Shown one piece after another: positions 6,513 to 57,353 of a DNA stretch of 64,000 nucleotides. The notes beneath the pieces were generated by a model. It saw only the letters and a program-made list of their open reading frames with translations. It was not told where the DNA came from and did no database searches. This DNA comes from Thermotoga sp. Ku-13t (GTDB lineage Bacteria; Thermotogota; Thermotogae; Thermotogales; DSM-5069). The stretch covers positions 62,001 to 126,000 of the forward strand of contig NZ_LNFY01000011.1 in NCBI RefSeq assembly GCF_011057685.1. Direction: 5' to 3'. The position numbers and the translations under genes were made by a program. Within the stretch, counting starts at the first letter, position 1. Each line of letters starts with the position of its first letter.

Positions 6513-6534
6513 CTGATACCACACGTCCTTCCAG

Positions 6535-6550
6535 TATTGGTGTATTGGTG
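6535..6550 (+). repeat. Tandem 8-base repeat TATTGGTG x2 upstream of the aroM promoter
   Basis: Two perfect adjacent copies of TATTGGTG end 28 bases before the -35 hexamer of the next promoter. The position suits an activator or repressor contact, perhaps for the XRE-cupin regulator encoded at the end of the operon. The function is inferred from position alone. Confidence 0.35.
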
Positions 6551-6578
6551 TTAAGTCCCCATTTGTCGTGAATCCCTA

Positions 6579-6608
6579 TTGACAGTTCTATATGCCGTTT
6601 ATTATAAT
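6579..6608 (+). promoter_or_regulatory. Strong sigma-A type promoter of the aroM-dpp operon
   Basis: TTGACA (6579-6584) and TATAAT (6603-6608), both exact consensus, are separated by 18 bases. The ribosome binding site AAGGAGGG of the AroM-family gene follows about 10 bases after the -10, so the leader is very short. This is the best promoter in the window and probably drives the whole transporter operon. Confidence 0.8.
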
Positions 6609-6632
6609 TAAACAAAAAAGGAGGGTTCCCGG

Positions 6633-7250: not shown

Positions 7251-7266
7251 AAAGGGGGTGTATGTG

Positions 7267-8805: not shown

Positions 8806-8807
8806 TG

Positions 8808-8827
8808 GGAGGCGCGAAGGCGCCTCC
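8808..8827 (+). terminator. Intercistronic GC hairpin after the solute-binding protein gene
   Basis: GGAGGCGC and GCGCCTCC form an 8-bp stem with a GAAG loop directly after the stop codon, followed by only two T. With the permease start just 18 bases on, this is better read as an mRNA-stabilising or partial attenuating hairpin that raises binding-protein expression than as a full terminator. Confidence 0.65.
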
Positions 8828-8844
8828 TTGCTCGGAGTGATCAA

Positions 8845-9804
8845 ATGGGAAAATACGTTTCCAGAAGAATCATTCAGATCATACCCACGCTCTTCTTCGT
8901 CATTCTAACAGCCTTTCTTTTGATGAAACTTGTCCCGGGCGATCCGGCGATGGTCTTACTAGGTCCGCAGGCGCGTGCTGAAGATATAGCCAGATTCAGA
9001 CAGGAACTCGGCTTGGACAAACCCCTATTGATACAGTTCTTTATTTATCTGAAAAGAGTACTCACAGGTGACCTTGGAGTGTCTCTTATTTACAGACAGA
9101 GCGTACTCTCATTGATCCTGGAGAGACTACCTGTCACGATCACGCTGAGCCTGTGCGCCTTGACAATTGCGGTGAGCATAGGTATCCCCGCAGGTGTTTT
9201 AGCGGCGATAAAGCACAACTCCTTAGTCGATCTACTTGTGACTATTCTGGCTCTGATGGGGCTTTCCATACCAATCTTTTGGTTTGGGATGATCCTCATC
9301 ATAATCTTTTCCCTCAAACTCGGATGGCTTCCCGCAGTTGGGCTCGGTGATCCAAGCAAAGGGATCTGGGATGTCGTGAGCCACTTCGTTCTCCCATCAC
9401 TCGCCCTCGGAATTCTCTCCACTGGAACTATCGCTCGCTTCACACGCTCGAGCATGCTCGAGGTACTGAACCAGGATTACATAAGGACCGCTTACGCAAA
9501 AGGACTCCGAAAGAGCCTTATTCTCTATAGACATGCACTGAGAAACGCTCTTGTTCCCGTCATAACAGTCATAGGCTTGCAGTTAGGAAATCTGCTCGCG
9601 GGGGCTGTATTGACGGAAACAGTATTTGCACTCCCTGGACTTGGAAAACTCATGGTTGATGGGATCTTCAGGCGTGACTATGTGCTCGTGCAGGGTGAGG
9701 TTCTCTTCACGGCAATCATGTACATCTTCGTGAATTTAGCTGTAGACATAGCCTATGCATTCATAAATCCCAAGATCAGGCAGACTTACAGGGGTGGTCT
9801 TTGA
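8845..9804 (+). CDS. dppB: ABC transporter permease, DppB/OppB/GsiC type
   Basis: A 319-residue inner-membrane permease with about six hydrophobic segments. The N-terminal RRIIQIIPTLFFVILTAF and LVPGDPA signature of the DppB/GsiC group is present, with the cytoplasmic EAA-like loop around DYIRTAYAKGLRKS (residues 208-221) that contacts the ATPases. GGAGTGATC lies 7 bases before the ATG. It forms the heterodimeric pore with the next gene product. Confidence 0.94.
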   Translation: MGKYVSRRIIQIIPTLFFVILTAFLLMKLVPGDPAMVLLGPQARAEDIARFRQELGLDKPLLIQFFIYLKRVLTGDLGVSLIYRQSVLSLILERLPVTITLSLCALTIAVSIGIPAGVLAAIKHNSLVDLLVTILALMGLSIPIFWFGMILIIIFSLKLGWLPAVGLGDPSKGIWDVVSHFVLPSLALGILSTGTIARFTRSSMLEVLNQDYIRTAYAKGLRKSLILYRHALRNALVPVITVIGLQLGNLLAGAVLTETVFALPGLGKLMVDGIFRRDYVLVQGEVLFTAIMYIFVNLAVDIAYAFINPKIRQTYRGGL

Positions 9805-39523: not shown

Positions 39524-42255
39524 TTTCGCTCACCTTCGAGCACCGCCACACACCTTGGACAAACGTTCGGGAACCGACTGTCCGAATTGGTCAGAGGATG
39601 ATACTTCCAGCATCTTTCACACTTCTGTCCTTCCGCTTTGCTCACGAGCACCTGTATTCTTTCATCGCCTCTTTCCAGTTCAACCTGAGACACTATGAAG
39701 AACTCTTCGAGAATGTCCCTGTAGCTTTCGAGCAGGCGGAACAAACTATCATCGCCAGCTTTCACGGTGAGTTTCGCATCTAAAGAATGACCTATCAGAT
39801 CAGCCTGTCTGGCTTCCTCGAGTGATTTCAATGCAATATCTCTGACTTCGAACAGCTTCTCGAAATCCTCCATGAGCCGTTCGTCGATCCAATCTTTTCT
39901 GTATTCGGGCCAGCTTTCGGCGTGGATGGTCTCGAACTTTCTGTCTTCCTGGCACAGATGCGAATAGGCTTCTTCGCAGGTGAAGGTGAGAATAGGCGAG
40001 AGCATGATCAGAAGGGATTTGAGAATCTCTCTGAGCACCGTCTGGGCGGACCTTCGTTTGAGCGAGTTTTTCCCCTCGACATAGAGTCGATCCTTGATGA
40101 TGTCCAGATACACCGCGCTCAGTTCGACCGAGCAGTATTTGACGAGGGTGTTGTAAACCTTCGAAATCTCGTAGCTCTCGTAACCCTCCGTGACGGTCGC
40201 GATGATCTGCTGAAGCCTTCCAAGCGCCCATCTGTCGATCGGTAAAAGCTTTTCGTAAGGCACCGCGTCTTTCAGTGTGAAGTCGTACAGGTTACCAAGC
40301 AGGTACCTGATCGTGTTCCTTATCTTCTTGTACACCTCCACCTGCTGCATGAGTATGTTGTAGCTTATGCGTATGTCGTTGAAATAGTCGCTGCTCGCGA
40401 GCCAGAGCCTCAACACGTCGGCGCCGTATTTCGAGCAAACTTCGAGCGGATCGACCACGTTTCCGAGCGACTTGCTCATCTTCTTTCCTTCTTCGTCCTT
40501 GATGAATCCGTGCGTGAGAACAGTTCTGTAGGGTGGTTGACCGTGCTTGACCACCGAGAGAACCAGCGAAGAGTTGAACCAGCCCCTGTGCTGGTCACTC
40601 CCTTCCAAATACATGTGCGCCGGGAAGGTGAGTTCGGGCCTCGAATTCAGCACCGCTTCGAAAGATGCACCAGAATCTATCCAGACGTCCAGCGTGTCGT
40701 ACGTCTTTTCGAGTTCGCCCGAGCCACAGTTTCTGCAGCTATATCTAGGAGGCAAGAGCTCTCTTTCGCTCAATTCGAACCACGCGTTGGTGCCTCTCTG
40801 TCTGACGATGGTTGCAAAATGCTCGATGATCTCCGCATCCAGGTTCACGTGGCCGCAGGAACTGCACCTGAACGCGGGGATCGGAATGCCCCACACTCTC
40901 TGTCTTGAGATGCACCAGTCTGGACGTTCTTCGATCATCGCCTTGATCCTGTTCTTGCCCCATTCTGGGATCCATTCGACCGTTTCTATCTGTTCTAGGA
41001 GCCTCTTTCTCAGATCGTTCTTGTCTATAGAGATGAACCACTGCTCGGTCGCCCGGAAAATTACGGGATTCTTGCACCTCCAGCAGTGCGGATAAGAATG
41101 CGTTATTGTCGAAGCGTGAATCAACGTTCCCATGTTTTTCAAATCTTCCACGATGATTTTGTTCGCATCAAACACGTTCAGACCTTCGTACTTTCCAGCT
41201 TCCTTCGTGAAACGACCCTTCTCGTCCACCGGCGAGAGTACGTCCAGCCCGTACAATCTGTAGCCGTACTCGTAGTCCTCTTCACCGTGACCCGGTGCCA
41301 CGTGGACACAGCCTGTTCCAGTTTCCATGTCCACAAAATCGGCCAGAATGATCCTTGAATCGCTTTTCGACAGCGGACTGATCGCGGTTCTACCTTCGAG
41401 CGAACGACCGCTGAATTTCTCTAAGACAGAATAATCCTTCAGGCCGACCTCTTTCGCGAACTGCTCCAGCAACCTTTCCGCCACGATCCAAACCTCGCCG
41501 TTCACCTTCAACCTCACGTAGGTCTCTTCGGGATGCACGGCAACTCCCGTGTTGGCTGGCAGAGTCCACGGCGTGGTCGTCCAGATGATGATGTATTCAT
41601 CAGCATCCTTCATTCTGAGCTTGACGTAGATGGAAGGAGAGACATGATCGTGGTACTCTATCTCAGCCTGTGCCAGCGCAGTTTTGCACGTGATGCACCA
41701 CAGGACTGGTTTCTTCTCCCTGTAGACGTAACCGTCCTCGACGAACTTTTTGAACACCGTATACACCCTGTACTCGTACTCGGGTTCGAGCGTGGCGTAA
41801 TAGTTGTCCCAATCTCCTATCACGCCGAGCCTCTGGAACTGACGCTTCTGGATCTCTATTTGTTCTCTGGCGAATTTTTCGCATTCTTTTCTGATCTCCT
41901 GTGGGGTCATCTTTTCTGCCTTCTCTTTCAGCATTGTTGTGACGCGGTGCTCGATCGGCAAACCGTGCGTGTCCCAACCGGGCACGTACGGTGCACGGAA
42001 GCCCCTCAGGGTTTTATACCTGATGACCATATCCTTCAGGATTTTGTTCATCGCTGTACCTATGTGAATCGCTCCGTTCGCGTAGGGAGGTCCGTCGTGC
42101 AGAACGAACAGGGGACGATGTTCCCTCGCCTTCAGGATGTATCTGTAAACGTCGAGCTTCTTCCAGCGTTCGAGAATCTGAGGCTCTTTTTCGACCAAAT
42201 TCGCCCGCATCGGGAACGATGTGCTTGGTAAATTCAGAGTCTCTCTGTAGTCCAA
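39520..42255 (-). CDS. ileS: Isoleucyl-tRNA synthetase
   Basis: A 911-residue class I synthetase. The HIGH-type motif [10 protein letters not shown] is near residue 60 and [10 protein letters not shown] near residue 590. The CP1 editing domain lies between, with THGLPIE near residue 97. The C-terminal zinc finger has CERCW and CPRC. The length is usual for bacterial IleRS. It overlaps pilT by 4 bases. Confidence 0.98.
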
Positions 42256-42267
42256 AGCGACACCTCC

Positions 42268-42627
42268 TCACATCTTCAAGAGCTCTTCGATCGTTCGCTT
42301 CAGTTCAGTCAGATCCGCTGATTTGACCACGTAGGCGTCGGCAGCCCAGGAGGACAGGTCGTACTTGTAGTGCGAGTACGCCGTCAGAAGGACGATCTTC
42401 AGCCCGGGGAACTTTTTCCTCAACTCACCCGCCGCTTCTATACCGTTCTTACCCGGCATCTCGATGTCCAAAATCACCAGATCGAAGGAGTCTTTCTCAA
42501 ACTTTTTCAGACACTCTTCCGCATCCCTGGCGGTCTGCACATCGTAGCCTTCGTCCGTGAGTTCTTCGCTCAGCAGAAGTCTTATGTTCTCCTCGTCATC
42601 CACAACGAGGATCTTAGTCCTGGCCAT
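42268..42627 (-). CDS. Single-domain response regulator (CheY-like)
   Basis: A 119-residue receiver with no output domain. Asp10 and Asp11 form the acidic pocket, Asp54 in VILDIEMPGKNG is the phosphorylation site, and TAYSHY and VVKSADL follow the usual T and K positions. It overlaps the histidine kinase gene by 14 bases, so the two are a translationally coupled pair. It probably acts by protein contact or phosphorelay. Confidence 0.94.
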   Translation of the reverse strand: MARTKILVVDDEENIRLLLSEELTDEGYDVQTARDAEECLKKFEKDSFDLVILDIEMPGKNGIEAAGELRKKFPGLKIVLLTAYSHYKYDLSSWAADAYVVKSADLTELKRTIEELLKM

Positions 42628-45253
42628 CTTTACTTCCTCCCTTCACAGGGATTTCGAACAAAAACTCCATGCCGTCACTCTTCGGTTCGGCCCAGATCCT
42701 GCCACCATGTTCATCCTCGATGATCTTCTTGCAAATCGGTAATCCCAGGCCTGTTCCCTGTGTCTTAGTTGTGTAGAACGGGGTGAAGATCTTCCTCAGT
42801 TCGTTCTCCGAAAGAGGCTGGCCCGTGTTGAAGACCGACACGACGACTTTCTCAGCTTCCTTGAAAGATTTGATGACTATCTTACCGTTGGGAGGCGAGG
42901 CCTCCACGGCATTCTGAACGAGATTGATGAGAACCCTTTTCAACTTGGTTCTGTCTGCAACAACCTTTGCCGCGCTCGAAAGCTTTGTCTCTATTATAAC
43001 ATTCGCTCTGCTCGCTTTTTCTTGCATGAGATAAACGACTTCTTGAATCAACTCGTTGATGTCGAACTCACTGAATTCCAGGATCGATTTCGGCTTACTG
43101 AACTCTAAGATCTCCGTCACGATCCTTTCGAGGTTCTCGACCTCTTTCGATATGACGTCCAGATACTTTTCGACAGTCCCGGGATTGGACAGATTCTTCT
43201 TCGCCCTGTTTATGAATCCACCGATCACCGTGATGGGGTTCCTCAACTCGTGTGCCACCCGTGCCGCGACCTCACCGAGCAGCGCGAGCTTTTCTCTCTC
43301 CTTGTTTTCCTGCTCCATCTTGACCCTCTGAGTAACATCTTCCAGAGTGACGATGATGCCCGTGATGGACTCGTTCGCCGGATCCCAGAGCGGTGAATAC
43401 CTGACGTCGAGAAAGATTTCACCCTGGGCGCTTTCGATGCGATATTCGTTTAGCTCAATGTTCTCGCGCCTCTCCAGAATAGTCATGGCAACCTCGAAGA
43501 GATCCTGAAAGGCGGGTCCAAGTTCCGTGTAGTGCTCTCCCACGATCCGTTCCTGTGGCAATCCCACGATGTGAGAAAACTTCCTGTTGCATTGCAGGAT
43601 ACGGCCGTTTCTGTCGAGCACAACGACACCTGTCGAAAGGTTCTGCAAAATATTTTCGGTGAACCTGTGAAGATAATCTATCACGTTTTTCTGTTTCTCG
43701 AGGCTTTCGGTTTTCTTTCTCAGTTCTTCGTAGTTCATCACGTTCTCTATGGCAAGTCCGGCACTGTCTGCGACTATCCTCAGCACCTCAACGTCCATAT
43801 CGCTGATCGGTTTTCTGGTGAATTTGTTGTCGAGTATCACAACACCTATCGTGTCCCAGCGACCGACCAGCGGCAACACGAGGAACTCGTCGACACCAAG
43901 AAGGTCCGCAAGATCCCGCACAGAAGCACCAAAACTTTCTATCAACGACGGTGTCACGTGGATTATCCTCTTACGAAGCACGACCCTTTCAAGGATCGGA
44001 TGGTCCTTGTAATAGAACATCCTTCCTTCTATGCGTGCGGTCAATCCGTTCTTCGCATCGAGCATCAGAGCTTCCTCGCGCAAATACTGAGCAAAGTCTC
44101 CATAAATCATCGCGCGGCGTTCGGCTTCCTTCCAGATCTTCTCGATGTCTTCTCCCTCTTCGGGGCCGAGCCACATCTTTCCCACGAGCGTCTCGGTCTT
44201 TCTGTCTCTGATCAGCAACAGTGCCCTGTTGAAAGCAAAACCCCTGCCCGAAGTCAACCCCAGAAGCAAGATCTTGTACACGTTCACCAGATCGTAGCTC
44301 GCCCTCATCGCGTTGCTCAGACTGTGTGTCAGGTCCATCTTCTTCAGGTATTCCTGCTGCTGCTGGATCAAGTTCTCGTACTCTTTCGTGTTCAGCTTCA
44401 AACGCTCTATCTGCTCTTTGAGGTCCTGCTGGTATTCTATGCGTGTGTAAGCGAGGCAGTACCTCTTCACCATGTCGCTCAGGCTCAACAGGTCGGTTTC
44501 TTCGAAACTGTACCTGCTACGATAACCACCCGGAGCGACCTTGTTCACGGCGATGAAGATACCTAAAACACTTTCCCCCAGTCTGGCAGGACTGGCGACA
44601 GCCGATTTGACCTTGATACTGAGAAAATCGAGCTGGGTTTTCGCCATCACCACACCTTGGTCGGACTTTTCTACTTTCGATACGAAACTGTGGTTCGCCG
44701 GCAATTTTTCGTATATCAGCTGGCCCTTGTCCACACCGTCCGCGTTTTTGAAAATGTAACCTTCCTCAGTCTTGGAAAAGTAAAGAACCGCCTCGGCATT
44801 CAGAGCTTTCTTCATAATCGCAAGTGTACCTTTCAGCAGCGAGACTGAGTCACTGGAACTGTAGAAAACATCGGTCAGTTCGCTGAGCATTTGATGTTTT
44901 TTCACTGTTTCCTGCAAAGAGACGACCTTTTCTGCGATCCAGAGCGTCCTCGAAAGTTCCTCCAGCCAGCCGCGTAAATTTTCGAGTTTTTTTGGCTGTC
45001 TCAACACCACCGCACCGATGGTCCTCGCCTCGTATTCCAGCAGGAAGCTGTCCTTCAAACCTTCGATCTCATCCCTACTCACTTTCTCCTGACCGACGCT
45101 CTCCCGCCTGTGCGTCGAACCGACCAGTCTGAACCTGGATCTGTAATCTTCAAAAAGATACACATCACAGGCTTCCGCCTGCGTCTCCTCACACAACATG
45201 GATGCGAGCCTGTCCATCGCATGGCTTTCATAACCACGCTCGAAGAATTCCAT
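42614..45253 (-). CDS. Multi-GAF/PAS sensor histidine kinase
   Basis: About 879 residues with no transmembrane helix, so probably cytoplasmic. The N-terminal half holds GAF-like domains, with a coiled segment (KQLEQ-type) and a PAS domain around ENILQNLSTGVVVLDRNGRIL. HisKA H-box HELRNPITVI puts the phospho-His at about 668. The N-box QNAVEA is near 781 and the G-box GTGLGLPI near 835. Start is unsure: ATG 45253 (or GTG 45256) follows the Mut7-C stop; a longer frame to 45517 would run through that gene. Partner of the adjacent response regulator. Confidence 0.9.
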   Translation of the reverse strand: MEFFERGYESHAMDRLASMLCEETQAEACDVYLFEDYRSRFRLVGSTHRRESVGQEKVSRDEIEGLKDSFLLEYEARTIGAVVLRQPKKLENLRGWLEELSRTLWIAEKVVSLQETVKKHQMLSELTDVFYSSSDSVSLLKGTLAIMKKALNAEAVLYFSKTEEGYIFKNADGVDKGQLIYEKLPANHSFVSKVEKSDQGVVMAKTQLDFLSIKVKSAVASPARLGESVLGIFIAVNKVAPGGYRSRYSFEETDLLSLSDMVKRYCLAYTRIEYQQDLKEQIERLKLNTKEYENLIQQQQEYLKKMDLTHSLSNAMRASYDLVNVYKILLLGLTSGRGFAFNRALLLIRDRKTETLVGKMWLGPEEGEDIEKIWKEAERRAMIYGDFAQYLREEALMLDAKNGLTARIEGRMFYYKDHPILERVVLRKRIIHVTPSLIESFGASVRDLADLLGVDEFLVLPLVGRWDTIGVVILDNKFTRKPISDMDVEVLRIVADSAGLAIENVMNYEELRKKTESLEKQKNVIDYLHRFTENILQNLSTGVVVLDRNGRILQCNRKFSHIVGLPQERIVGEHYTELGPAFQDLFEVAMTILERRENIELNEYRIESAQGEIFLDVRYSPLWDPANESITGIIVTLEDVTQRVKMEQENKEREKLALLGEVAARVAHELRNPITVIGGFINRAKKNLSNPGTVEKYLDVISKEVENLERIVTEILEFSKPKSILEFSEFDINELIQEVVYLMQEKASRANVIIETKLSSAAKVVADRTKLKRVLINLVQNAVEASPPNGKIVIKSFKEAEKVVVSVFNTGQPLSENELRKIFTPFYTTKTQGTGLGLPICKKIIEDEHGGRIWAEPKSDGMEFLFEIPVKGGSKDGQD

Positions 45254-45270
45254 CACCAGTTCGAAAAACC

Positions 45271-45723
45271 TCAGAGTCCCAGCCTCCTGAAAAGTTCTTC
45301 GGCGTGCTCCACGTGTGAACCAGCCCAGTACACGCGGCCACACACGGGACACGAGTAAAACTCTCTGTGTGTCTGCTGAACGTAGAGCGGGACTTTTTCC
45401 TTTATCTGTTCTTCGTTTGCTTCGACCAGCTCGACGTTGCACAGGCTGCACCTGCTCATGCGCTTCGAGTTCTTCAGATCGATCTTCTTCGAAAGTTCCA
45501 CCAGTTGTTCTCGCCAATCATCCGAACTGACGTAATAACAACGCACACCGTTTTCGACGGCCTTCTTCAGCAAATCCCGATCTCTCGTGATCAGAATGCG
45601 GCCGGACTCTTTGCAGAGCTGAAGTATTTCTTCCTCGCTCATCTGCGAGGAATAGACCGTATCGAAACCGAGCAACCTGAGTTTCCTCGCAAGCTTTCCA
45701 AGCATCCTGTCGGCGAAGAACAT
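45271..45723 (-). CDS. Mut7-C RNase-like zinc-ribbon protein
   Basis: A 150-residue protein with a PIN-like Mut7-C domain: FFADRMLGKLARKLRLLGFDT at the start and LITRDRDLL as the acidic motif. A C-terminal zinc ribbon has CSLC and CPVC. The ATG at 45723 keeps the family's M-x-F-x-x-D start; upstream ATGs at 45729, 45732 and 45741 add a few residues and none has a clear ribosome binding site. Function is uncharacterised; possible RNase. Confidence 0.8.
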   Translation of the reverse strand: MFFADRMLGKLARKLRLLGFDTVYSSQMSEEEILQLCKESGRILITRDRDLLKKAVENGVRCYYVSSDDWREQLVELSKKIDLKNSKRMSRCSLCNVELVEANEEQIKEKVPLYVQQTHREFYSCPVCGRVYWAGSHVEHAEELFRRLGL

Positions 45724-45747
45724 GTTCATCATCAAGAACATTTTACA

Positions 45748-45778
45748 ATAAAGAAGAGCCCTCCAGTCCGGAGGGCTC
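45748..45778 (-). terminator. Rho-independent terminator of the LacI operon
   Basis: On the minus strand GAGCCCTCC and GGAGGGCTC form a 9-bp stem with a GGACT loop, followed by TTCTTTATT. It lies 18 bases after the isomerase stop codon and before the Mut7-C start. Confidence 0.8.
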
Positions 45779-45795
45779 GATCCCTGACGGTACTT

Positions 45796-46710
45796 TCAAA
45801 CAAGCTTTTTGAGGAACTGCAATCCCATGATTAAACCTTTCTTCGCTTTCTCCAAACTTCCCGCCCAAATGGGATCTTCGTGTTCTATGCTGATGACGAA
45901 ATCGTATCCAGCCTTTTTCAAATTCAGCAGGAAGCTCGACCAGTCAATCTCACCGAGGCCGGGCATGCGGTAGATCCACCAGCTCTTACCGTGCGCGTTG
46001 GTTCCAAAGTGTCCAAAGATGCTCTGTTCATGGAGCATGTTCCTCTTGATCTCTACGTCTTTCGCGTGCACGTGGAAAATTCTGTCGGCGAACTCTTCCA
46101 CTACCTTCAGATAATCCACGCCAAGCCAGTACAAATGTGACGGATCGAGGTTCAATCCAAAAGAATCTGGGGTGATCCTGAATATTTCTCTCCAGAGCTC
46201 CGGTGCATAGAAGATGTTTCCTATCTTCTCTTCTGCCTGCCAGCCCACCATGGGGCAGTTCTCTATCATGAGCTTAACGTTCTTGCTCTCGGCGTAGGCT
46301 ATCAACGGTTTGAAAACCTTTTCGAACTCTTTCAGGTTCTCTTCCACGCTCTTGGTTATGTCCCTTCCTATGAACGTTCCAACGAGCTCAACCCCCAGCA
46401 GATTGGCCGCATCGATGACTTTCTTGAGATGCTCGTTTATAGCCTTTCTCTTCTCGGGGTTCGCATCGAGGTTGTTGTCGTAATAAGCCAGAGAAGAGAT
46501 GATCAAGCCATGCTTTTCCAGAAATGCTTTGATCCTTTCTGCTTCTTTCCTGTCGAACTTATCAACATCGATCGTGGTGGAAGAAAAGTCCCTCTCGTTC
46601 ACCAAAGGCCAGGCGGCAACTTCTAGAGCTTCAAAACCAGCGCTCGCGGCCCACTCAACGATTTCATCGAATTTCGTGTTGCCCAGCGCGACCGTCAGGA
46701 AACCGATCTT
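45796..46710 (-). CDS. Sugar phosphate isomerase/epimerase (xylose isomerase-like TIM barrel)
   Basis: A 304-residue AP-endonuclease-2-like TIM barrel. MKIGFLTVALG begins it, GFEALEVAAWP follows, VKLMIENCPM is the conserved metal-binding Glu strand, GLNLDPSHLYW the Asp/His strand, and FHVHAKDVE the next. ATG 46710 has GGAGGTGACC upstream. Members isomerise or dehydrate sugars such as keto-inositols, and it is the last gene of the operon. Confidence 0.88.
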   Translation of the reverse strand, partial: KIGFLTVALGNTKFDEIVEWAASAGFEALEVAAWPLVNERDFSSTTIDVDKFDRKEAERIKAFLEKHGLIISSLAYYDNNLDANPEKRKAINEHLKKVIDAANLLGVELVGTFIGRDITKSVEENLKEFEKVFKPLIAYAESKNVKLMIENCPMVGWQAEEKIGNIFYAPELWREIFRITPDSFGLNLDPSHLYWLGVDYLKVVEEFADRIFHVHAKDVEIKRNMLHEQSIFGHFGTNAHGKSWWIYRMPGLGEIDWSSFLLNLKKAGYDFVISIEHEDPIWAGSLEKAKKGLIMGLQFLKKLV

Positions 46711-46731
46711 CATCGGGTCACCTCCAATGAA

Positions 46732-46753
46732 GAGGCGGGCGAGAGCCCGCCTC
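46732..46753 (-). terminator. Intercistronic GC hairpin after the sugar-binding protein gene
   Basis: On the minus strand GAGGCGGGC and GCCCGCCTC form a 9-bp stem with a TCTC loop, followed by TTCATT and directly by the ribosome binding site of the isomerase. It should reduce read-through and protect the upstream binding-protein mRNA. Confidence 0.7.
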
Positions 46754-46759
46754 AACTTT

Positions 46760-47707
46760 TCAGAACACCGAATCTGGGAAGTAGTAATCCTTCGCGTTCT
46801 GCCTGGTGACAGTCTCGGTTGAGAGTATGATCTTTCTCGGTATTCCTTTCTGGTAGAAACCGTTCAAAGATTCGCCTTTGAGCGCCATGACCGCGAGGTT
46901 GATCGCCGTGGCGATCATGTTGGGTGGGTAGGTGAAGTCAACCTCGATGAGCGGATGGCCATCCATGATCATCTTAACTATGTTCTTCTCGCACGCACCA
47001 CCGACCAGGATGATGTTCTTGTCCCTGCCAGCCTGCCTGAGTGCGATCAGAACTCCGTGCAGCATGTCGTCGTCACCTGTCCAGACGGCGTCGATCTGCG
47101 GGAACTTGGTGAGCAACGTCTGCATGACCTCGAACGCCTTCTCTCTGGACCAGTAGCCGGGCTGTTCTGCGATGATCTTCAGATCTGGATACGGTGCGAT
47201 GGCGTCCTTGAACGCTTTCACTCTCTCATCGTCGATCGTGGACGGAATACCCCTTATGACGACGATGTTACCTTTGCCCTTGAGTTTCTCTGCGATGTAC
47301 TTTCCTGCGAGATAGCCGTACATGTAGTTGTCGCCGGCGATGTAAACGTTGTACTCTTCAGACGTGATGCCTCTGTCAACGATGACAGTGTAGACGCCCT
47401 GTCTGAACGCTTGAACACAGATGGGTGTGAGTGGAGCGGACTCGTACGGGTTGATGACCAGTGCGTCGATTCCACGTGCGAGCAGCGCCTGAACCTGAGC
47501 GATCTGTTCGCTCGGTTCTCTCGCAGTGACCAGGTAGAATTCCACATCTGGATCGTTCTGGTACTGCTTGATCGCGTACTGCGCCCACCAGACCATGCCA
47601 CCAGTCCAGCCGTGATCCGCCGCCGGAATCGCGACTCCGATCCTGTACTTTGCTGCGAAGCTCACCAGAGCTACAGCTACCATTAACACGAGCAGCAGCT
47701 TCCTCAT
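46760..47707 (-). CDS. Sugar ABC transporter substrate-binding protein (ribose type)
   Basis: A 315-residue periplasmic-binding protein of the RbsB/XylF group. A signal peptide ending near LVSFAAK is followed by YRIGVAIPAADHGWTGGMVWWAQ. ALLARGIDALVINPYES and WTGDDDMLHGVLIAL are the two lobes' sugar-contact regions. No lipobox Cys is seen. It belongs with the downstream-oriented permease and ATPase genes. Ligand unknown; the family includes ribose, xylose, inositol and galactofuranose. Confidence 0.92.
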   Translation of the reverse strand: MRKLLLVLMVAVALVSFAAKYRIGVAIPAADHGWTGGMVWWAQYAIKQYQNDPDVEFYLVTAREPSEQIAQVQALLARGIDALVINPYESAPLTPICVQAFRQGVYTVIVDRGITSEEYNVYIAGDNYMYGYLAGKYIAEKLKGKGNIVVIRGIPSTIDDERVKAFKDAIAPYPDLKIIAEQPGYWSREKAFEVMQTLLTKFPQIDAVWTGDDDMLHGVLIALRQAGRDKNIILVGGACEKNIVKMIMDGHPLIEVDFTYPPNMIATAINLAVMALKGESLNGFYQKGIPRKIILSTETVTRQNAKDYYFPDSVF

Positions 47708-47743
47708 ACAAACACCTCCCCTTTCTTGCCCTCAATGGGGCTA

Positions 47744-48688
47744 TCATCTTCTCAAACTTTGCAGCAACACCGCAGCGATGATGATCAGACCCTTGACCAT
47801 ACCCTGTAAATACACCGCCACGTTGAGCATCACGAGCATGTTGTTGACAACACCGAGTATCAAGGCACCGAAGAACGTTCCGAAGATCGTGCCCTTTCCA
47901 CCGCTCAAACTTGTTCCACCGATCACAGCCGCCGCGATCGCGTCCAGTTCAAAGCCAGACCCTGTCGACGAAGAGCTCACCGAAGCCATCATCGAAGAGA
48001 GCAGTATGGCCGAAGTTGCCACAGAAACTCCACTGATGACGTACGTGATCGTTCTGACCACATCGACCTTTATCGCCGAATAAACCGCGGCGGTTTCGTT
48101 CGCACCGACTGCGTACACGTACCTCCCAAATTTCGTTTTGTCCAGAACGATGTACGCCAGAACGGCGTAGGCTATGAACACGATCATGGGTAAAGGTAGA
48201 CCCGCGATGAACTTCATGCCGAAACTGGAGAAAGTGCGGGAAAAGCTCATGTACACTCCACCGTTTGCGAAGTTGAGCACCAGGGATCTGTATATCGCCA
48301 TGCCGCCGAGTGTGGTGATGAACGCGGGAATCTTTCCCTTCGTCGTCAACAGGCCCATGCCAAGACCGAGCAGAGCACCCAGACCGTAGGTAAGCAGGAT
48401 CGAAAGCACCGTCGCTCCAGCACTGTCACCTATCCTGTTGCTTGTCGTTATAGCGAAGGCACCGAGGAGTGCAAGCATCGAGCCAACTGAAAGATCGATC
48501 CCGCCGGCGATCATGACGAAAGTGATGCCTATCGCTATGATTCCCACGTAGGACGTCTGCCAGAAGATGTTCAGAATGTTTCTCGGCTTGAGAAACGCCG
48601 GTGTCACGATGCCGGAGAAGATCATCAACCCGATCAGCACGAGCACGATCATGTACCTGGTGAGAAAGGCTTTAAGTTTGATACACAC
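47744..48688 (-). CDS. Sugar ABC transporter permease (RbsC type)
   Basis: A 314-residue multispanning permease. PRNILNIFWQTSYVGIIAIGITFVMI and GGIDLSVGSMLAL are typical of RbsC. ALLGLGMGLL and VVNNMLVMLNV are further landmarks. The GTG start overlaps the ATPase gene by 17 bases. It forms a homodimer in related ribose-type importers. Confidence 0.94.
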   Translation of the reverse strand: MCIKLKAFLTRYMIVLVLIGLMIFSGIVTPAFLKPRNILNIFWQTSYVGIIAIGITFVMIAGGIDLSVGSMLALLGAFAITTSNRIGDSAGATVLSILLTYGLGALLGLGMGLLTTKGKIPAFITTLGGMAIYRSLVLNFANGGVYMSFSRTFSSFGMKFIAGLPLPMIVFIAYAVLAYIVLDKTKFGRYVYAVGANETAAVYSAIKVDVVRTITYVISGVSVATSAILLSSMMASVSSSSTGSGFELDAIAAAVIGGTSLSGGKGTIFGTFFGALILGVVNNMLVMLNVAVYLQGMVKGLIIIAAVLLQSLRR

Positions 48689-50177
48689 CGACCTCCTTCA
48701 CACCCGTCGCGTGATAGATGAGTTCCCTCTCGTTGAGGCCTTCTCCTTCCACCTCGGCCACGATCTGACCGTTGCGCATGACCATGACCCTGTTGCAGAG
48801 CCCTATGATCTCTGGCAGATCGGAAGAAACCACAACGAAACTGCAACCAAGTTCCTCTATCATCTGGTGCATGATCTTGTAAATCTGGTGCCTCGCGTTC
48901 ACATCCACACCGCGCGTTGGCTCATCGAACAGAAAGATCTTTGCTCCCGTTTCCACGAGTTTGGATATGACGACCTTCTGCTGGTTGCCCCCGCTGAGCG
49001 TTCCAACGGTCTGCCATGGACTTCGCACCTTGATCTCGAACTTTCTTTCGTAGCCTTTGAATGTATCGAGTTCACTTCGAACGCGCACGAAGAGCCTTGA
49101 GAATTTCTCCAAAGCCATCATCGTTGTGTTTTTGAACGCTTCCAGGCTGGCTATGATCCCACCGTTCTTTCTGTCTTCAGGAAGGTAAACGAGCCCCAGC
49201 TTTTTCGCTTCCAGGGGATCTTCGATCTTCACCTTTTTTCCAAACAGATACACCTCACCGGACTTCACCTTTCTGATTCCCACGAGTGCTTCCATGAGCT
49301 CGGTCCTGCCGGAACCGACGAGGCCATAGAAACCGAGTATCTCACCCTTGCGAAGCTCGAAACTCGCCTGCCTGACTCTTCCATCCAGAGTTGAGAGGTC
49401 CTTCACCTGCAGAACGATCTCGGAACCTGGAACGGGCTTTTCAGGAAAGATTTCTTCGAGCTTTCGACCGACCATGAGTTCGGCTATCTGTTTTTCGCTC
49501 AGACCCTGCACCTCTCCCTGATAGACCTTTCTTCCATCGCGCAACACGATCAGTTCTTCCGCTATTTGTCGTACCTCTTTGAGCCTGTGCGAGATGAATA
49601 TCACCGTTATTCCCTTCTGCTTCATGTTCTTCACGATCTCGAAGAGCTTGAGCACCTCCTCGTCTGTGAGCGAAGAGGTCGGCTCGTCCATGATCAGCAC
49701 CTTCACCTTTTTGGATATGGCTTTGATGATTTCTACCATCTGTTTCTGTGCTGGTGAAAGCTGTGACACGTAAGCTGTGGGATCTATGGAGAGCCCAAGC
49801 TGCTGCATGAGCTGTTTGGTTTCTTCTATCATCTGCTTTTTTGCGAGCAGGAAACCTCTCGTCAACTCGTCCCTGAGGAAGATGTTCTCGTACACCCTCA
49901 GACTTTCGACCAAGTTCAATTCCTGCGGTATCAGCACGATGCCGAGGGATTTGGCTTTGAGCGGATTCAGTTCGACCCTTTCACCTTCGAAGAAGATCTC
50001 TCCTTCGGTCGGCTGCAAAAAACCCGAAAGGATCCTCATGAGTGTCGATTTTCCGGCTCCGTTCTCTCCGACCACACCGTAGATTCTGGCCGGCTCGAAG
50101 TCGACATCGACGTTGTGCAGAACTCTCACGTTTGAAAAATCCATGCAGACGTTTCTCGCAGAAAGAATCGCGCTCAT
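48672..50177 (-). CDS. Sugar ABC transporter ATPase (RbsA type)
   Basis: A 501-residue tandem ATPase. The first domain has GENGAGKST near residue 40 and VLIMDEPTSSL; the second has GLVGSGRTEL near residue 280 with the degenerate Walker A of RbsA proteins, and LSGGNQQKVV. It energises the RbsC-type permease. The 17-base overlap indicates coupling. Confidence 0.95.
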   Translation of the reverse strand: MSAILSARNVCMDFSNVRVLHNVDVDFEPARIYGVVGENGAGKSTLMRILSGFLQPTEGEIFFEGERVELNPLKAKSLGIVLIPQELNLVESLRVYENIFLRDELTRGFLLAKKQMIEETKQLMQQLGLSIDPTAYVSQLSPAQKQMVEIIKAISKKVKVLIMDEPTSSLTDEEVLKLFEIVKNMKQKGITVIFISHRLKEVRQIAEELIVLRDGRKVYQGEVQGLSEKQIAELMVGRKLEEIFPEKPVPGSEIVLQVKDLSTLDGRVRQASFELRKGEILGFYGLVGSGRTELMEALVGIRKVKSGEVYLFGKKVKIEDPLEAKKLGLVYLPEDRKNGGIIASLEAFKNTTMMALEKFSRLFVRVRSELDTFKGYERKFEIKVRSPWQTVGTLSGGNQQKVVISKLVETGAKIFLFDEPTRGVDVNARHQIYKIMHQMIEELGCSFVVVSSDLPEIIGLCNRVMVMRNGQIVAEVEGEGLNERELIYHATGVKEVGVYQT

Positions 50178-51199
50178 TCTACCTTCACTGCCTGCCCTTT
50201 CTTTGCAGATTCGAATATTTTCTCGACCACTTTGACCGCGATGTATCCATCTTCAGGCTTGACGATGGGCTCTTCCAGACCCAAGCACACCTTCGCGAAG
50301 TGGTCCACGACCGGCATCTTCCAGTAAGGATCCTCGTTGGTGAACAAGGGTCTCAAAACGATCTCACCGTGCATCCTGAAAGGTTTTTCGAGATATATGT
50401 CGATCTTCGTTGGATCGGTCTGTCCCACCTTCATCGTGCCCTTCTCTCCGTAAACGACGAAGTAGTTCTCCTCGAGTCCTTTCGTGACCCAGTTCGAATC
50501 GAGTGTCGCCAGGGCTGAGTTGGAAAGCTTCAGAACCGCACTCGCCACGTCTTCCACCGAAGCTCGCTTCTCGAGCGTCGCTATGAATCCTGTGCACTCC
50601 ACGATGTCCAGGCCGGTGATGTATCTGATCAGGTCCACCTTGTGAACACCGAGATCGCCAAGGGCTCCGAACATGGCAACGTTCCTGTCGAAAAACCACG
50701 CTGCGCTCGGAGACCAGTTCTCTGGACCGGCGTGTCCAAACATCGTCTTGACGAGTCTTATCTCTCCGAGCACGCCGGATTGAACGATCTCTTTCGCTTT
50801 GATATGGTGCGGGAAGAACCTCTGCGAGTGGTTAACCATCAGAATCTTTTTGTTCTTCTTGGCAGCTTCGATCATCTTCAGGGCGTCTTGCGAGTTCGTG
50901 GCCATGGGCTTTTCGACCAGCACGCTTTTCCCTTTCTCGAGCGCAGTGATGGAAACTTCCGCGTGCAGTGCGTTCGGAGTGGCCACGATGACAGCATCTA
51001 TGTCTTCCTTCTCAAGCATCTGTTGATAATTCTCGTAAAACCGCACATTTTCGAGCTTTCGTTTGAATTGTTCCAGCCTCTGCGCGTTTGGGTCCGCTAT
51101 CGCCACGAGTTCTGCGTACTCAGAAAGGATCGTGTTTGGTATGTGCAACACTTCAGATATCTTCCCCGCGCCCACGATGCCGATCCTTACTTTTTTCAT
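50174..51199 (-). CDS. Gfo/Idh/MocA family oxidoreductase
   Basis: A 341-residue NAD(P)-dependent dehydrogenase. Rossmann motif IGIVGAGKISE is at the start, EKPMATN is the conserved Lys motif near residue 96, and the C-terminal alpha/beta domain follows. Family members act on inositol, glucose, or amino-sugars. It overlaps the ATPase gene by 4 bases and is followed by the PIG-L gene upstream. The substrate is not defined. Confidence 0.92.
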   Translation of the reverse strand: MKKVRIGIVGAGKISEVLHIPNTILSEYAELVAIADPNAQRLEQFKRKLENVRFYENYQQMLEKEDIDAVIVATPNALHAEVSITALEKGKSVLVEKPMATNSQDALKMIEAAKKNKKILMVNHSQRFFPHHIKAKEIVQSGVLGEIRLVKTMFGHAGPENWSPSAAWFFDRNVAMFGALGDLGVHKVDLIRYITGLDIVECTGFIATLEKRASVEDVASAVLKLSNSALATLDSNWVTKGLEENYFVVYGEKGTMKVGQTDPTKIDIYLEKPFRMHGEIVLRPLFTNEDPYWKMPVVDHFAKVCLGLEEPIVKPEDGYIAVKVVEKIFESAKKGQAVKVE

Positions 51200-51211
51200 G
51201 CACTCACCTCC

Positions 51212-51841
51212 TCAGAGTTTTTCCAGATCGATCAGTTTCTTTCTGTGTGGAGACAGCGGGAATCTGCTTCCTAAGTGCTTGAACACCTCTGCGTAGGCGC
51301 AACCAGTTTGAATGCCCCTGAAACCTGCCGGAAAGATGATCGATGGCATGATCTCCTTCTCGTAGACGTCCTCATCGAAAGCGTTCTTCATGAGTTCTAT
51401 GGCCTTCTTCTTGAACTCGTAAGAATCAGATATATCGATCGCCACGTCGAACTGAAAGTCCAGACTCGAAGCTGGAATCTCGAACAGATAGATCTCTTTT
51501 TCAAGCCTTCTCGCAACATCGATAGTGATCTTTGAAACAACCTCATGGTCGTACAGGATCTCGCTGTGGAAGTGTGTGAAAACTATATCTGGATCGAAAC
51601 TCTCCATGAGCCTTCTGAGCTCTTTCGAGAGAACCACCTCGTCTATCTGACCGTACGAAAAACCGAACTTTTCTGCCTCTGCCCCGAGCAACTTCATGGC
51701 TTCGACGTAACCGTCTATCCTATCTCCACAAACGCTCAGCGCACAGACACGGTTCTGTCGCAGTGAAAGTTCCCTCATTGTTCCGCCAGCACCTATGATC
51801 GGATCGTCGCTGTGCGCAGCGACAATCAGTATCCTTTTCAT
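51212..51841 (-). CDS. PIG-L/LmbE family N-deacetylase
   Basis: A 209-residue zinc-dependent deacetylase. AAHSDDPIIGAGG at residues 8-20 carries the His-Asp-Asp metal motif, and FTHFHSEILYDHEVV the downstream His. Such enzymes remove acetyl or other acyl groups from amino sugars such as N-acetylglucosaminides. Between lacI and the dehydrogenase gene, it implies that the imported compound is an N-acylated sugar or glycoside. Confidence 0.88.
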   Translation of the reverse strand: MKRILIVAAHSDDPIIGAGGTMRELSLRQNRVCALSVCGDRIDGYVEAMKLLGAEAEKFGFSYGQIDEVVLSKELRRLMESFDPDIVFTHFHSEILYDHEVVSKITIDVARRLEKEIYLFEIPASSLDFQFDVAIDISDSYEFKKKAIELMKNAFDEDVYEKEIMPSIIFPAGFRGIQTGCAYAEVFKHLGSRFPLSPHRKKLIDLEKL

Positions 51842-52833
51842 AAATCCACCTTCTTCAAACTCGAGCGTCTGACCACGAGCCTCGGGGAAAACACGTAACG
51901 TTTTATCTTCGAGTTGCCTTTGATCAGTTCGAAGAGCAGTTTCGCCGCGACCTCACCCATCTCCTCCACAGGTTGATGAACCGAACTCAAAGGTGGATCG
52001 ATGATCTCACACAGTTCTTCATCGTTGTCGAAACCGACGATCGCCACATCGTTTGGAATTCTCATATTTTTTTCTTTCAGCGCCCTCATAGCACCTATCG
52101 CGACGAGATCGTTCATGCAGAACACACCATCGACCTGAACACCCTCTTCGAGCAACCTCTTCATCCCTTCGTAACCTGCAGATTCGTTGTACCCAACCGG
52201 TTCAACGAACGGTTTTAAACTCGCCTCGTTCATGGCCGCCTCGTAGCCTTTCGCCCTCTCCAGAGAAACGTACAGTTCGTGCGTTCCACCCAGATGAACG
52301 ATGTTCCTGCAGCTGTTTTCGATCAAATGTTTCGTCGCCATGTACGCACCGTAGCGGTTGTCCAGCACGATCGAGACGACGTTGTCCAGCTCGTAGAACT
52401 TGTCGAAAACCACTACAGGGATGTAATCGGAAATTTCTTCCACCAGATCGTCGCTGACACGCGAATTTCCAATGATGATCCCATCGATTCCGAAAAACCT
52501 CGCGTTTCTGATGAGTTTTTCCTCTCTTTCCAAGTTTCTGAAAGAATCCATCAGTATGACGAGCGAGTCCTCACCACAGGCTTTCTGAACCCCGCGCGTG
52601 AGCCTCGCAAAGAACGGGTTTATGATGTCCGGCACGATGAGCCCTATGGTGAGTATCTTGCTCTTTCGTGCCATGTTGCGCGCGTGATAGTTGGGTGTGT
52701 AGCCGAGCTCTCGCGCGATTTTGAGAATCTCTTTCCTCTTCTCCTCACTCACACGCCCTTTACCGTTGAGAACCTTCGAGACGGTCGAGACGGAAACGTT
52801 GGCCAAATTTGCTACATCTTTGAGAGTTGGCAA
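51838..52833 (-). CDS. LacI family transcriptional regulator
   Basis: A 331-residue repressor. The N-terminal helix-turn-helix DVANLANVSVSTVSKVLNG is at residues 6-24, followed by the hinge and a periplasmic-binding-like sensor domain (LTIGLIVPDIINPFFARL). The TTG start has AAGGAGG 9 bases upstream. It heads the sugar operon and overlaps the PIG-L gene by 4 bases. An operator-like dyad lies just before it. Confidence 0.94.
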   Translation of the reverse strand: MPTLKDVANLANVSVSTVSKVLNGKGRVSEEKRKEILKIARELGYTPNYHARNMARKSKILTIGLIVPDIINPFFARLTRGVQKACGEDSLVILMDSFRNLEREEKLIRNARFFGIDGIIIGNSRVSDDLVEEISDYIPVVVFDKFYELDNVVSIVLDNRYGAYMATKHLIENSCRNIVHLGGTHELYVSLERAKGYEAAMNEASLKPFVEPVGYNESAGYEGMKRLLEEGVQVDGVFCMNDLVAIGAMRALKEKNMRIPNDVAIVGFDNDEELCEIIDPPLSSVHQPVEEMGEVAAKLLFELIKGNSKIKRYVFSPRLVVRRSSLKKVDL

Positions 52834-52857
52834 GCATTAAATCCTCCTTCTCACATA

Positions 52858-52875
52858 TGGTTAATCGTTTTCCCA
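52858..52875. promoter_or_regulatory. Putative LacI-type operator
   Basis: TGGTTAATCGTTTTCCCA is an 18-base imperfect palindrome with a central CG (12 of 18 positions symmetric), the hallmark of LacI-family sites. It covers about +8 to +25 of the predicted lacI transcript, a position that blocks transcription when bound. Confidence 0.55.
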
Positions 52876-52889
52876 ATCAGTTCACATTT

Positions 52890-52918
52890 AGTCTACCAGT
52901 TTTCCACACCACTGACAA
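52890..52918 (-). promoter_or_regulatory. Promoter of the LacI-regulated sugar operon
   Basis: On the minus strand TTGTCA (52918-52913) and TAGACT (52895-52890) are separated by 17 bases. Both are near consensus. The LacI TTG start follows about 56 bases downstream, leaving room for the operator. Confidence 0.6.
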
Positions 52919-53119
52919 ACATCTTTGTTGACCATAAAGAGTGATCTTCTCGAATCTTCGCTCTTTACTCGCAAAAGAAATGTCGAATTCGCAATCGAGC
53001 TTTTCTTTTCTCAAAATTCCGCCATTTTTCTTCAGCATGTAACAGAACCACACTAATGTAAACTGGCTGGGCGGTCGCTGTTTGATTCTGAAAGTCAGGT
53101 GCTTCTGAACCTGTGTTAG

Positions 53120-55008
<1,889 letters not shown>

Positions 55009-55022
<14 letters not shown>

Positions 55023-55968
55023 CTATCCGGGTATACTCGGTCTCGCACCCATGGCCGGTGTGACGGACAGGGCCTTCAGAACCGTCTGCAGGTTGTGGGG
55101 TGCTCAGTTCTTCTTCACCGAAATGATCAGCGCCGAGAGCGTGCTTTTAAATCTCGGCATTGTCGAAAGGATGCTTCCTTTTGAGGAAGAAAACACCGCG
55201 GTACAGCTGTACGGTTCAGACCCCGAGAAACTCGCCCTCGCTGCGAGGAAAGTTCAGCACAGGGCAAGCTGGATCGATCTGAATGCAGCGTGTCCTGTGA
55301 AGAAAATCGTCAAGAAGAACAGCGGAGCTGCATTGCTGAAAGATCTGGAAAGGCTCAGAGACATCGTCATGGCGATGAAAGACGCCTGTGACAAACCGAT
55401 CACCGTGAAGATCAGGATCGGTTTCGAAAGAAACGAGCTTGAAAGGATCATGGAAACGCTCGTTCTTGCCGGTGCCGATGGAGTGGAAGTGCATGGAAGA
55501 ACCGCAGTTCAGATGTATTCAGGTAAAGCCCAGTGGGACCTGAAGCTGGACAGATGGAACGTTCCAGCGGCCATTTCTGGCGATCTGTACACAGTCGAAG
55601 ACGTTCGGAACGCGATGAACATCTCGAAAGCCAGAGCCGCCATACTCGCAAGGGGCGCGTTGAGAAAACCCTGGATCTTCCATGAATTCCTCTATGGAAA
55701 AGCGCCGGGTGTTGAAGAGATCAGAGACATGTTCCTGCTCCATGCAAAGCTTTTGAAAGAGCTGGAGGGAGAAAGATCTTTCTACAGTCTGAGACAGTTC
55801 GTGGCAGGTTACACACATGGCTTTTCCGGCGCGAGGGAATTCAGAGAAAGGTTCATGAAAATTGAAGGTTTCGAGGCCATAGAGAACGCGATCGGGCAGT
55901 TTTTTAATTGTTTTCTAATGAACGCGGGGGAAAATACAGTTGTCAAAGAAGATGGAGCCAGAGTATGA
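55009..55968 (+). CDS. dus: tRNA-dihydrouridine synthase
   Basis: A 319-residue FMN-dependent enzyme that reduces uridine in the tRNA D-loop. LAPMAGVTDRAFR at residue 12 binds flavin, AACPVKKI holds the catalytic Cys, and HGRTAVQMYSG follows. It overlaps nadD by 14 bases and ends 17 bases before the htrA start. Confidence 0.94.
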
Positions 55969-55985
55969 CTCAAGGAGGTGTCGTT

Positions 55986-57353
55986 ATGAGAAAGGTTCTC
56001 GTGATGCTGAGCGCGCTCGTGGCAGTCGTTTCGATGTTCGCACTGGTGAATCCGGACTATCAGAGTCCGATCGTTGCCGTCGTGGAAGCCTGTGCGCCGG
56101 CTGTCGTGAAAGTTGAAGCTGTGAAAACTGTGAGGTCTCCTTACTTCGATCCTTTCATTGAAGATTTCTTCAAACGCTGGTTCGGCTATTCCCCGTTCGG
56201 CGGCACACAGAGGGCCACGAGCATTGGCTCAGGCTTCATCTTCGACAAAGCTGGTTACATCCTGACCAACGAACACGTTGTGAGTGGAGCTTCCGAAATC
56301 ACCGTTACGCTCCTGGATGGTTCTTCCTACAAGGCTGAATACGTCGGTGGCGATGCGGAACTGGACATAGCAGTTCTGAAGATCAAGGCTGAGAAAGAGT
56401 TCCCGACCCTCGAGCTGGGTGATTCGGACAAGGTGAAGATAGGCGAATGGGCCATAGCCATTGGTAATCCGCTCGGATTTCAGCACACCGTGACGATAGG
56501 TGTTGTGAGCGCCACGGGTAGAAGGATTCCCAAGCCGGACGGCTCTGGTTACTACACGAATCTGATCCAGACCGACGCGGCGATCAACCCGGGAAACAGC
56601 GGGGGGCCGCTTTTGAACATACACGGTCAGGTGATCGGTATCAACACGGCGATCATAAATCCTCAGGAAGCGGTGAACCTTGGGTTTGCGATACCCATAA
56701 ACACTGTGAAGAGGTTCATAAACCAGCTCGTGCAGACAGGTAAGGCCCAGAAGGCTTACCTTGGCGTAAGAGTGACGACCGTGACGAACGAGCTTGCGAA
56801 GGCGCTCGGTTTGAAGGTGAACAAGGGTGCACTCATCGTTCAGGTTATGGAAGGCTCACCCGCAGACAAGGCAGGACTGAAGGACAACGACGTGGTCGTC
56901 AAGTTCGACGGTGTGGATGTAAACAGCGATGCCGAACTCGTCTCGTTGATACACAGCCACGTGCCGGGCGATGTGGTGGAGATCGTCGTGAACAGGAACG
57001 GTAAAGAGATCAAGTTCGTTGTGACGCTCGGTTCTTCGAGTGATGAGGAAGTCCAGTCAGCCGTCGCGGCGAAAGAGTTCCTCGGCATCGTGGTGGACGA
57101 GATAACACCTTCAGACAGGGAAACATACTCCATACCGGTACGTGTTGAAGGTGTGATCGTGCGTCAGAACAGAGGTTCGCTCGCCCTGCAGGCTGGCGAT
57201 GTGATCGACCAGATCGCCGTCAACGGTCAAAGGTACGCGATCAGATCTGTCAGCGACTGGAACGAAGTGGTGGGAAAGATCAAGAGGGGCGATTTCATAG
57301 CAATCTTCGCCATTAGAAGGGGTGCAAGGCTGGTTTACAGTTTCACGTACTGA
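55986..57353 (+). CDS. htrA: Periplasmic serine protease HtrA/DegP
   Basis: A 455-residue exported protease. A signal peptide (VLVMLSALVAVVSMFA) precedes a trypsin-like domain with His97 (TNEHVV), Asp127 (ELDIAV) and Ser205 (GNSGGPL). Two PDZ domains follow, from about residues 245 and 355. It degrades or refolds misfolded envelope proteins. ATG 55986 is chosen because AAGGAGGTG lies about 6 bases upstream. Confidence 0.96.
   Translation: MRKVLVMLSALVAVVSMFALVNPDYQSPIVAVVEACAPAVVKVEAVKTVRSPYFDPFIEDFFKRWFGYSPFGGTQRATSIGSGFIFDKAGYILTNEHVVSGASEITVTLLDGSSYKAEYVGGDAELDIAVLKIKAEKEFPTLELGDSDKVKIGEWAIAIGNPLGFQHTVTIGVVSATGRRIPKPDGSGYYTNLIQTDAAINPGNSGGPLLNIHGQVIGINTAIINPQEAVNLGFAIPINTVKRFINQLVQTGKAQKAYLGVRVTTVTNELAKALGLKVNKGALIVQVMEGSPADKAGLKDNDVVVKFDGVDVNSDAELVSLIHSHVPGDVVEIVVNRNGKEIKFVVTLGSSSDEEVQSAVAAKEFLGIVVDEITPSDRETYSIPVRVEGVIVRQNRGSLALQAGDVIDQIAVNGQRYAIRSVSDWNEVVGKIKRGDFIAIFAIRRGARLVYSFTY

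Follow-up and report, generated by a model that had tools for sequence, protein, structure and literature searches.

A Thermotogota operon joining a CUT2 importer and a candidate 3-keto-sugar pathway to a PIG-L protein that lacks the HxDH histidine

Background

The published route for levoglucosan runs through oxidation, elimination, hydration and reduction and employs Gfo/Idh enzymes together with two barrels, a small lyase and a larger hydratase (PMC7676230, PMC10066097); the same four steps are given for C-glycosides (PMC13273386). Published clusters of the levoglucosan type differ in barrel number (PMC10066097). Here we describe an operon of seven genes from Thermotoga sp. Ku-13t, contained in a stretch of 64,000 nucleotides (C11:62001-126000 of the 2.08-Mb genome) referred to below as the window. 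The operon brings together a PIG-L protein, a Gfo/Idh dehydrogenase, an AP_endonuc_2 TIM barrel and a ribose-type (CUT2) importer. In what we consider its best explanation, held with middling confidence, the importer would serve a non-hydrolytic 3-keto breakdown of a small sugar compound, with the PIG-L protein as an extra, lineage-specific step.

Annotation pipelines equate the PIG-L domain with 'deacetylase' and hence infer amino-sugar substrates. We found no paper on PIG-L with Thermotoga, nor on this gene combination, among the open-licence papers searched; the text of PMC3750489 contains neither deacetylase nor PIG-L nor Gfo, and that of PMC4052901 does not contain deacetylase.

Gene content of the operon

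The interval 45796-52833 runs exactly from the stop codon of the TIM-barrel gene to the start of lacI. The genes, all on the minus strand, are listed in order of transcription with their Pfam scores.

51838..52833, minus strand: LacI-family repressor with a TTG start, the local regulator (LacI, 73.1 bits, cut-off 27)
51212..51841, minus strand: divergent PIG-L/LmbE-like metalloenzyme of 209 amino acids (PF02585, 42.0 bits, cut-off 28.2)
50174..51199, minus strand: Gfo/Idh/MocA dehydrogenase with conserved EKP and GDLGVH stretches (GFO_IDH_MocA, 114.0 bits, cut-off 24)
48672..50177, minus strand: CUT2-type ABC ATPase with two ABC domains (ABC_tran, 166.4 bits, cut-off 25)
47744..48688, minus strand: CUT2-type permease (BPD_transp_2, 132.7 bits, cut-off 26.8)
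46760..47707, minus strand: CUT2-type sugar-binding protein (Peripla_BP_4, 171.6 bits, cut-off 35.1)
45796..46713, minus strand: AP_endonuc_2 TIM barrel, open reading frame listed from 46755 (AP_endonuc_2, 129.5 bits, cut-off 31.1)

The combination of families reported in the initial annotation is thus confirmed by scores above the curated Pfam cut-offs. Its view that this is one catabolic operon to which no standard pathway fits also stands, the family models for ribose, inositol and levoglucosan all scoring under their cut-offs.

The PIG-L protein

The predicted structure of the PIG-L protein (mean predicted local distance difference test score, pLDDT, 91) is nearest in fold to BshB-type proteins, GalB and Dac (Z 25.8 to 23.6, differences of less than 1 being treated as ties). 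The metal ligands H10, D13 and H99 and the general-base D12 are kept in 17/17 operon copies and in 36/36 other PIG-L proteins, and the AHSDD and YDH motifs of the metal site are retained. The predicted fold and the metal site match a functional enzyme, and the domain name leaves its reaction unsettled. At the position of MshB His144, the histidine of the HxDH motif, all 17 full-length operon copies have a leucine (Leu96), while the 36 others, which are mostly top-scoring family matches in the phylum rather than a random sample and whose frames were chosen by the HxxDD and DH motifs, all have histidine. This count leaves out L029 (L numbers denote loci, G numbers genomes), which has a truncated N-terminus, and L021, L023 and L025, which are the same genes as L086, L095 and L088. 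Compared with LmbE-like deacetylases, the protein has a shorter loop following its second strand, and in alignment-dependent comparisons the column of MshB Asp95 lacks Asp and the loop bearing Arg68 is shortened.

In a review of LmbE-like enzymes (PMC4101496), replacement of the corresponding histidine leaves at most 1% of activity in MshB (H144A), significantly decreases that of BshB (H110A) and abolishes that of teicoplanin deacetylase (H161A). Two points weigh on the other side. Rat PIG-L H154A is given there as having activity like the wild type, so Leu96 does not exclude activity; and by sequence profile the diacetylchitobiose deacetylases (Dac) are nearest (E 4.6e-13) and GalB is weaker (4.7e-6), which favours deacylation. 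The histidine is likewise missing from GalB, a hydratase with this fold, and with leucine in 17/17 operon copies deacylation is not assured. The claim that the enzymes imply an N-acylated substrate was therefore not borne out: with a deacetylase-like enzyme that lacks a key residue, the imported compound may be something other than an acetylated amino sugar.

A substrate of this kind is possible, and not implied by the enzymes. From an amino sugar or aminocyclitol glycoside with an N-acyl group, PIG-L would remove that group, Gfo/Idh would oxidise the compound and the TIM barrel would rearrange or cleave it. We regard this as somewhat unlikely. It agrees with the Pfam score of PIG-L, with Dac as the nearest solved relatives by sequence profile, with the intact metal ligands and base Asp, and with the best curated match of the Gfo/Idh protein, UDP-N-acetylglucosamine (UDP-GlcNAc) 3-dehydrogenase, though this is far under its cut-off; 3-keto chemistry could also follow deacylation. 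It is opposed by the leucine and, depending on the alignment, by the changes at Asp95 and Arg68, by the service of the same importer family in operons that have neither PIG-L nor any sign of amino sugars, and by a nagA gene above cut-off elsewhere in the genome, on contig C9. Standard amino-sugar catabolism was rejected, since nagA lies on C9 and no nag gene lies inside the operon.

Our best reading of the PIG-L protein is as a lineage-specific, additional metal-dependent hydrolase, lyase or hydratase. A narrower version, which we think fairly unlikely, is that it would be no deacetylase but a GalB-like lyase or hydratase replacing the small TIM-barrel lyase of a 3-keto-glycoside pathway, here in Thermotogota only. 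Whether PIG-L proteins without the HxDH histidine still deacylate could be tested cleanly on this conserved operon, and as the proteins come from thermophiles the assays should be easy.

The TIM barrel and the dehydrogenase

The model of the TIM barrel is nearest in fold to SCO6571 (2zds; Z 27.6, root-mean-square deviation (rmsd) 2.4, 257 residues aligned) and then to AtHYD (8ro4; Z 26.9, rmsd 2.6, 257 aligned), with the other matches close, at 26.2 and below. Its likely metal residues Glu, Asp, His and Glu are conserved, the metal role being suggested by the fold family. In a phylogenetic analysis it falls in a clade of 21 rows with AtHYD, SCO6571 and a Priestia barrel (support 82/82), apart from IolE, YcjR, FrlC and a DgpC-like protein; some rows from its own genome (L121, L125-L127) have long branches, and their chosen frame may be wrong. 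AtHYD is a 2-hydroxy-3-keto-glucal hydratase. The isomerisation step of the initial annotation is thus doubtful, as fold and tree place the barrel with the keto-glucal hydratase AtHYD and SCO6571 and not with IolE, YcjR or FrlC.

Several observations count against this placement and the pathway built on it. The barrel is just 23% identical to AtHYD and to SCO6571, and the clade support is moderate. A profile of window-type barrels only finds SCO6571 (E 4e-13) and does not find AtHYD at E 0.001; a match to AtHYD at E 2.5e-97 was not used as evidence, as the profile behind it included AtHYD-like sequences. The best curated family match of the barrel is IolE (56 bits, cut-off 290). The Gfo/Idh protein is about equidistant from UDP-GlcNAc 3-dehydrogenase (154 bits), IolG (150 bits, cut-off 355) and levoglucosan dehydrogenase (116 bits, cut-off 650), with none near its cut-off. 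The match to IolE is uninformative, because an AtHYD-like barrel also matches IolE best, at 70 bits. A Gfo/Idh protein and an AP_endonuc_2 barrel both lie inside the operon, as a 3-keto-glycoside pathway demands; a separate small lyase barrel of the LgdB1 type was not found in the operon, which has a single barrel only.

The scores to IolG and IolE, which are among the best curated matches, would also suit catabolism of inositol or of a rhizopine-like aminoinositol, in which the Gfo/Idh protein would be a dehydrogenase like IolG or MocA and the barrel a dehydratase like IolE. In rhizopine catabolism MocA acts together with a TIM barrel and a binding protein of the sugar type. The link between MocA and rhizopine is mentioned in PMC7676230. 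We consider this reading improbable: both scores are far under their cut-offs, the AtHYD-like barrel shares the preference for IolE, the tree splits the window barrel from IolE, and a separate locus in the genome encodes IolM (531 bits, cut-off 450), IolO (446 bits, cut-off 300) and an IolG-like protein. On the grounds of this locus and of the two missed cut-offs, inositol was set aside as an unlikely substrate.

Relatives of the window-type barrel at 38-48% identity adjoin Gfo/Idh genes on plasmids of Chloroflexota, Streptomyces and Enterococcus, and there is no PIG-L in the annotated stretches around them.

The importer and the question of free pentoses

The nearest solved relative of the binding protein is 4joq (E 2e-68). 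The CUT2 architecture of the transporter, together with the xylA and xylB genes that adjoin several sister operons, might point to ribose or another free pentose, with PIG-L in no catalytic role. To this we give only a slender chance. The binding protein scores 109 bits to the RbsB equivalog (cut-off 337), with no xylF model near its cut-off; a family-model scan of the seven operon genes found no pentose kinase or isomerase of known family; and the PIG-L metal site is conserved in 17/17 copies.

Conservation in the Thermotogota

Strong relatives of the PIG-L protein are present in 18/103 Thermotogota genomes, its own included (weakest E 1.4e-63), and four further genomes match weakly (best E 1.6e-5 to 1.8e-4). 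The Gfo/Idh protein is found at E 1e-80 or better in the identical set of 18/103 genomes. The two genes adjoin in 17/18; in G088 the Gfo/Idh, binding-protein and TIM-barrel genes are on a different contig. All seven genes occur in the same order in 12/18 (the window, L026-L028, L031-L035, L038, L040 and L042). This shared distribution and order make the operon more than a chance grouping. Variant operons are seen in L036, L037 and L041, the last having an SCO6571-type barrel (56% identical to 2zds) in place of the window-type barrel after the PIG-L/Gfo pair, and the operons of L029 and L039 are incomplete. L030 (G065) has the seven genes and an importer with a deletion: at 6246-7796 the ATPase and permease are shortened and the binding protein lies within an open frame of 522 amino acids, through deletion or an assembly fault. 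The TIM barrel (E 1e-40) is found in 21/103 genomes and the binding protein (E 1e-60) in 31/103, so both exist also without PIG-L.

In a sister genome (L151, G057 C1:1672000-1690000) only a truncated binding-protein gene and the TIM gene are present, at 7613-9186, between obg and histidine kinase/ileS; this is an operon remnant at the same genomic place. Directly 5' of lacI, in the same direction and nearly without gaps, L031 (10439-15919) and L036 (13247-17781) carry another CUT2 importer cassette that includes one or two extra TIM barrels, which suggests that it is co-transcribed with the operon. The extra barrel of L036 shares 57-59% identity with barrels from Embleya, Shinella and Ensifer plasmids.

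Conserved peptide patterns were used to search for PIG-L relatives outside the Thermotogota. A relative was encoded by 11/76 matches, all 11 Thermotogota-titled, in a search that may overlook distant relatives. Among the genomes searched, the operon PIG-L is confined to Thermotogota. A further 139 plasmid records hold PIG-L relatives; the one annotated locus of the four opened is a polysaccharide locus, and no link was gained from them.

Sister operons without PIG-L

The binding-protein family recurs at 42-44% identity in Deinococcus and Alphaproteobacteria (L060-L064). PIG-L-free plasmid operons of Deinococcus, Phyllobacterium, Azospirillum and Paroceanicella combine this importer family with a Gfo/Idh protein and an AtHYD/SCO6571-type barrel, and relatives in Paracoccus and Sulfitobacter have the same set, also without PIG-L. 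L061 is an exception, with ATPase, permease and binding protein but no Gfo/Idh and AtHYD/SCO6571-type barrel beside them. The barrels of L062, L063, L064 and L142 share 67-74% identity with AtHYD. Within the Thermotogota, L146, L147 and L152 have a Gfo/Idh gene, an SCO6571-type barrel, ATPase, permease and binding protein (51-52%) and no PIG-L.

Loci with an AtHYD/SCO6571-type barrel often adjoin genes of xylose metabolism. xylA stands beside the AtHYD-type barrel in 4/7 loci opened (L064, L153, L154 and L155; not L062, L063 or L142), and in L147 and L152 a xylulokinase above cut-off lies a few genes away. This is a hint that the released sugar may be xylose and not glucose.

Small TIM barrels also occur beside relatives of the operon proteins. 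In L144, L145 and L150 relatives of the window TIM barrel or Gfo/Idh protein adjoin one, and no operon-type PIG-L relative was matched there; G008 and G010 have a 59-61% relative of the window barrel with Gfo/Idh and a small TIM barrel, and G002 (C85) a 45% Gfo/Idh relative with a small TIM barrel.

The pathway that we propose would begin with the CUT2 ABC importer, taking up a small O-glycoside, an anhydrosugar or a related pyranoside. The Gfo/Idh protein would oxidise a ring hydroxyl, probably at C3, and afterwards reduce the 3-keto product. Elimination and/or hydration would fall to the metal-dependent TIM barrel and proceed via an intermediate of the 2-hydroxy-3-keto-glucal type, as with AtHYD and LgdB2. 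PIG-L, with a working single-metal site, would add one step. It might take off an acyl group or, as the alteration of its active site suggests, perform the elimination or hydration for which other systems use a small TIM-barrel lyase. The operon would thus connect a family of CUT2 importers present in several phyla with a probable non-hydrolytic breakdown of 3-keto sugars, often near xylose genes.

Transcription unit and control elements

Adjoining genes overlap or almost touch, with overlaps of 4 nucleotides at lacI/PIG-L, 4 at Gfo/ATPase and 17 at ATPase/permease. As part of the explanation given at the outset, we read the seven genes as a single LacI-controlled transcription unit, with these candidate elements.

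52890..52918, minus strand: promoter-like site TTGTCA-17-TAGACT with TG ahead of the second hexamer (9/12 matches), 5' of lacI
52859..52873, minus strand: LacI-type operator-like site GGAAAACGATTAACC, between the promoter and the ribosome-binding site
45756..45778, minus strand: terminator-like stem-loop with a 10-pair stem, shortly 3' of the TIM gene

Scan totals show no excess over shuffled sequence (promoters 4 vs 5.2, terminators 8 vs 7.9), so the weight rests on position and conservation. Operator-like sites, judged by eye, are also present upstream of lacI in relatives. The exact operator pattern has a single match in its own genome, and a second match occupies the corresponding position in a same-genus genome; with one mismatch there are 3 further matches in its own genome vs 6 for the reversed control. 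A wider LacI regulon was rejected on the exact counts, 1 in its own genome and 1 across the other four same-genus genomes. For the TIM gene, the ATG at 46713 is a more likely start than the TTG at 46755, since that start is conserved and the ribosome-binding-like GGAGGTGA lies just upstream.

A divergent gene for an Obg-like GTPase, recognised from its sequence, lies upstream of the operon, and a histidine kinase gene and ileS lie downstream. Rfam gave no match within 42000-56000. A defence system was considered and dropped, PADLOC giving no match for PIG-L, TIM or Gfo.

Comparison with known systems

The levoglucosan cluster LgdA-LgdB1-LgdB2-LgdC (PMC7676230) resembles the window operon in its clustering of LacI, a sugar ABC importer, Gfo/Idh and AP_endonuc_2 barrels. 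As described there, it differs in having two Gfo/Idh proteins and two barrels, where the window operon has one of each, and in lacking PIG-L; the window Gfo/Idh protein also falls far below the levoglucosan dehydrogenase model. The operons with AtHYD-like barrels in Alphaproteobacteria share the importer family, Gfo/Idh, broadly the same TIM clade and often LacI. They differ in the barrel, to which that of the window is 23% identical, in often adding xylA/xylB, and in being without PIG-L.

For the PIG-L protein itself, the LmbE-like deacetylases Dac, BshB and MshB share the fold (Z 23.6-25.8 for BshB-type and Dac) and the HxDD and DH metal site, but the window protein has leucine for the HxDH histidine and a shorter loop behind the second strand. 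The 4-oxalomesaconate hydratase GalB (5cgz) matches it in fold (Z 24.9, rmsd 2.5, 192 aligned) and in a second motif that ends in YDH without the histidine, and differs from it in having AHSAD where the window protein has AHSDD.

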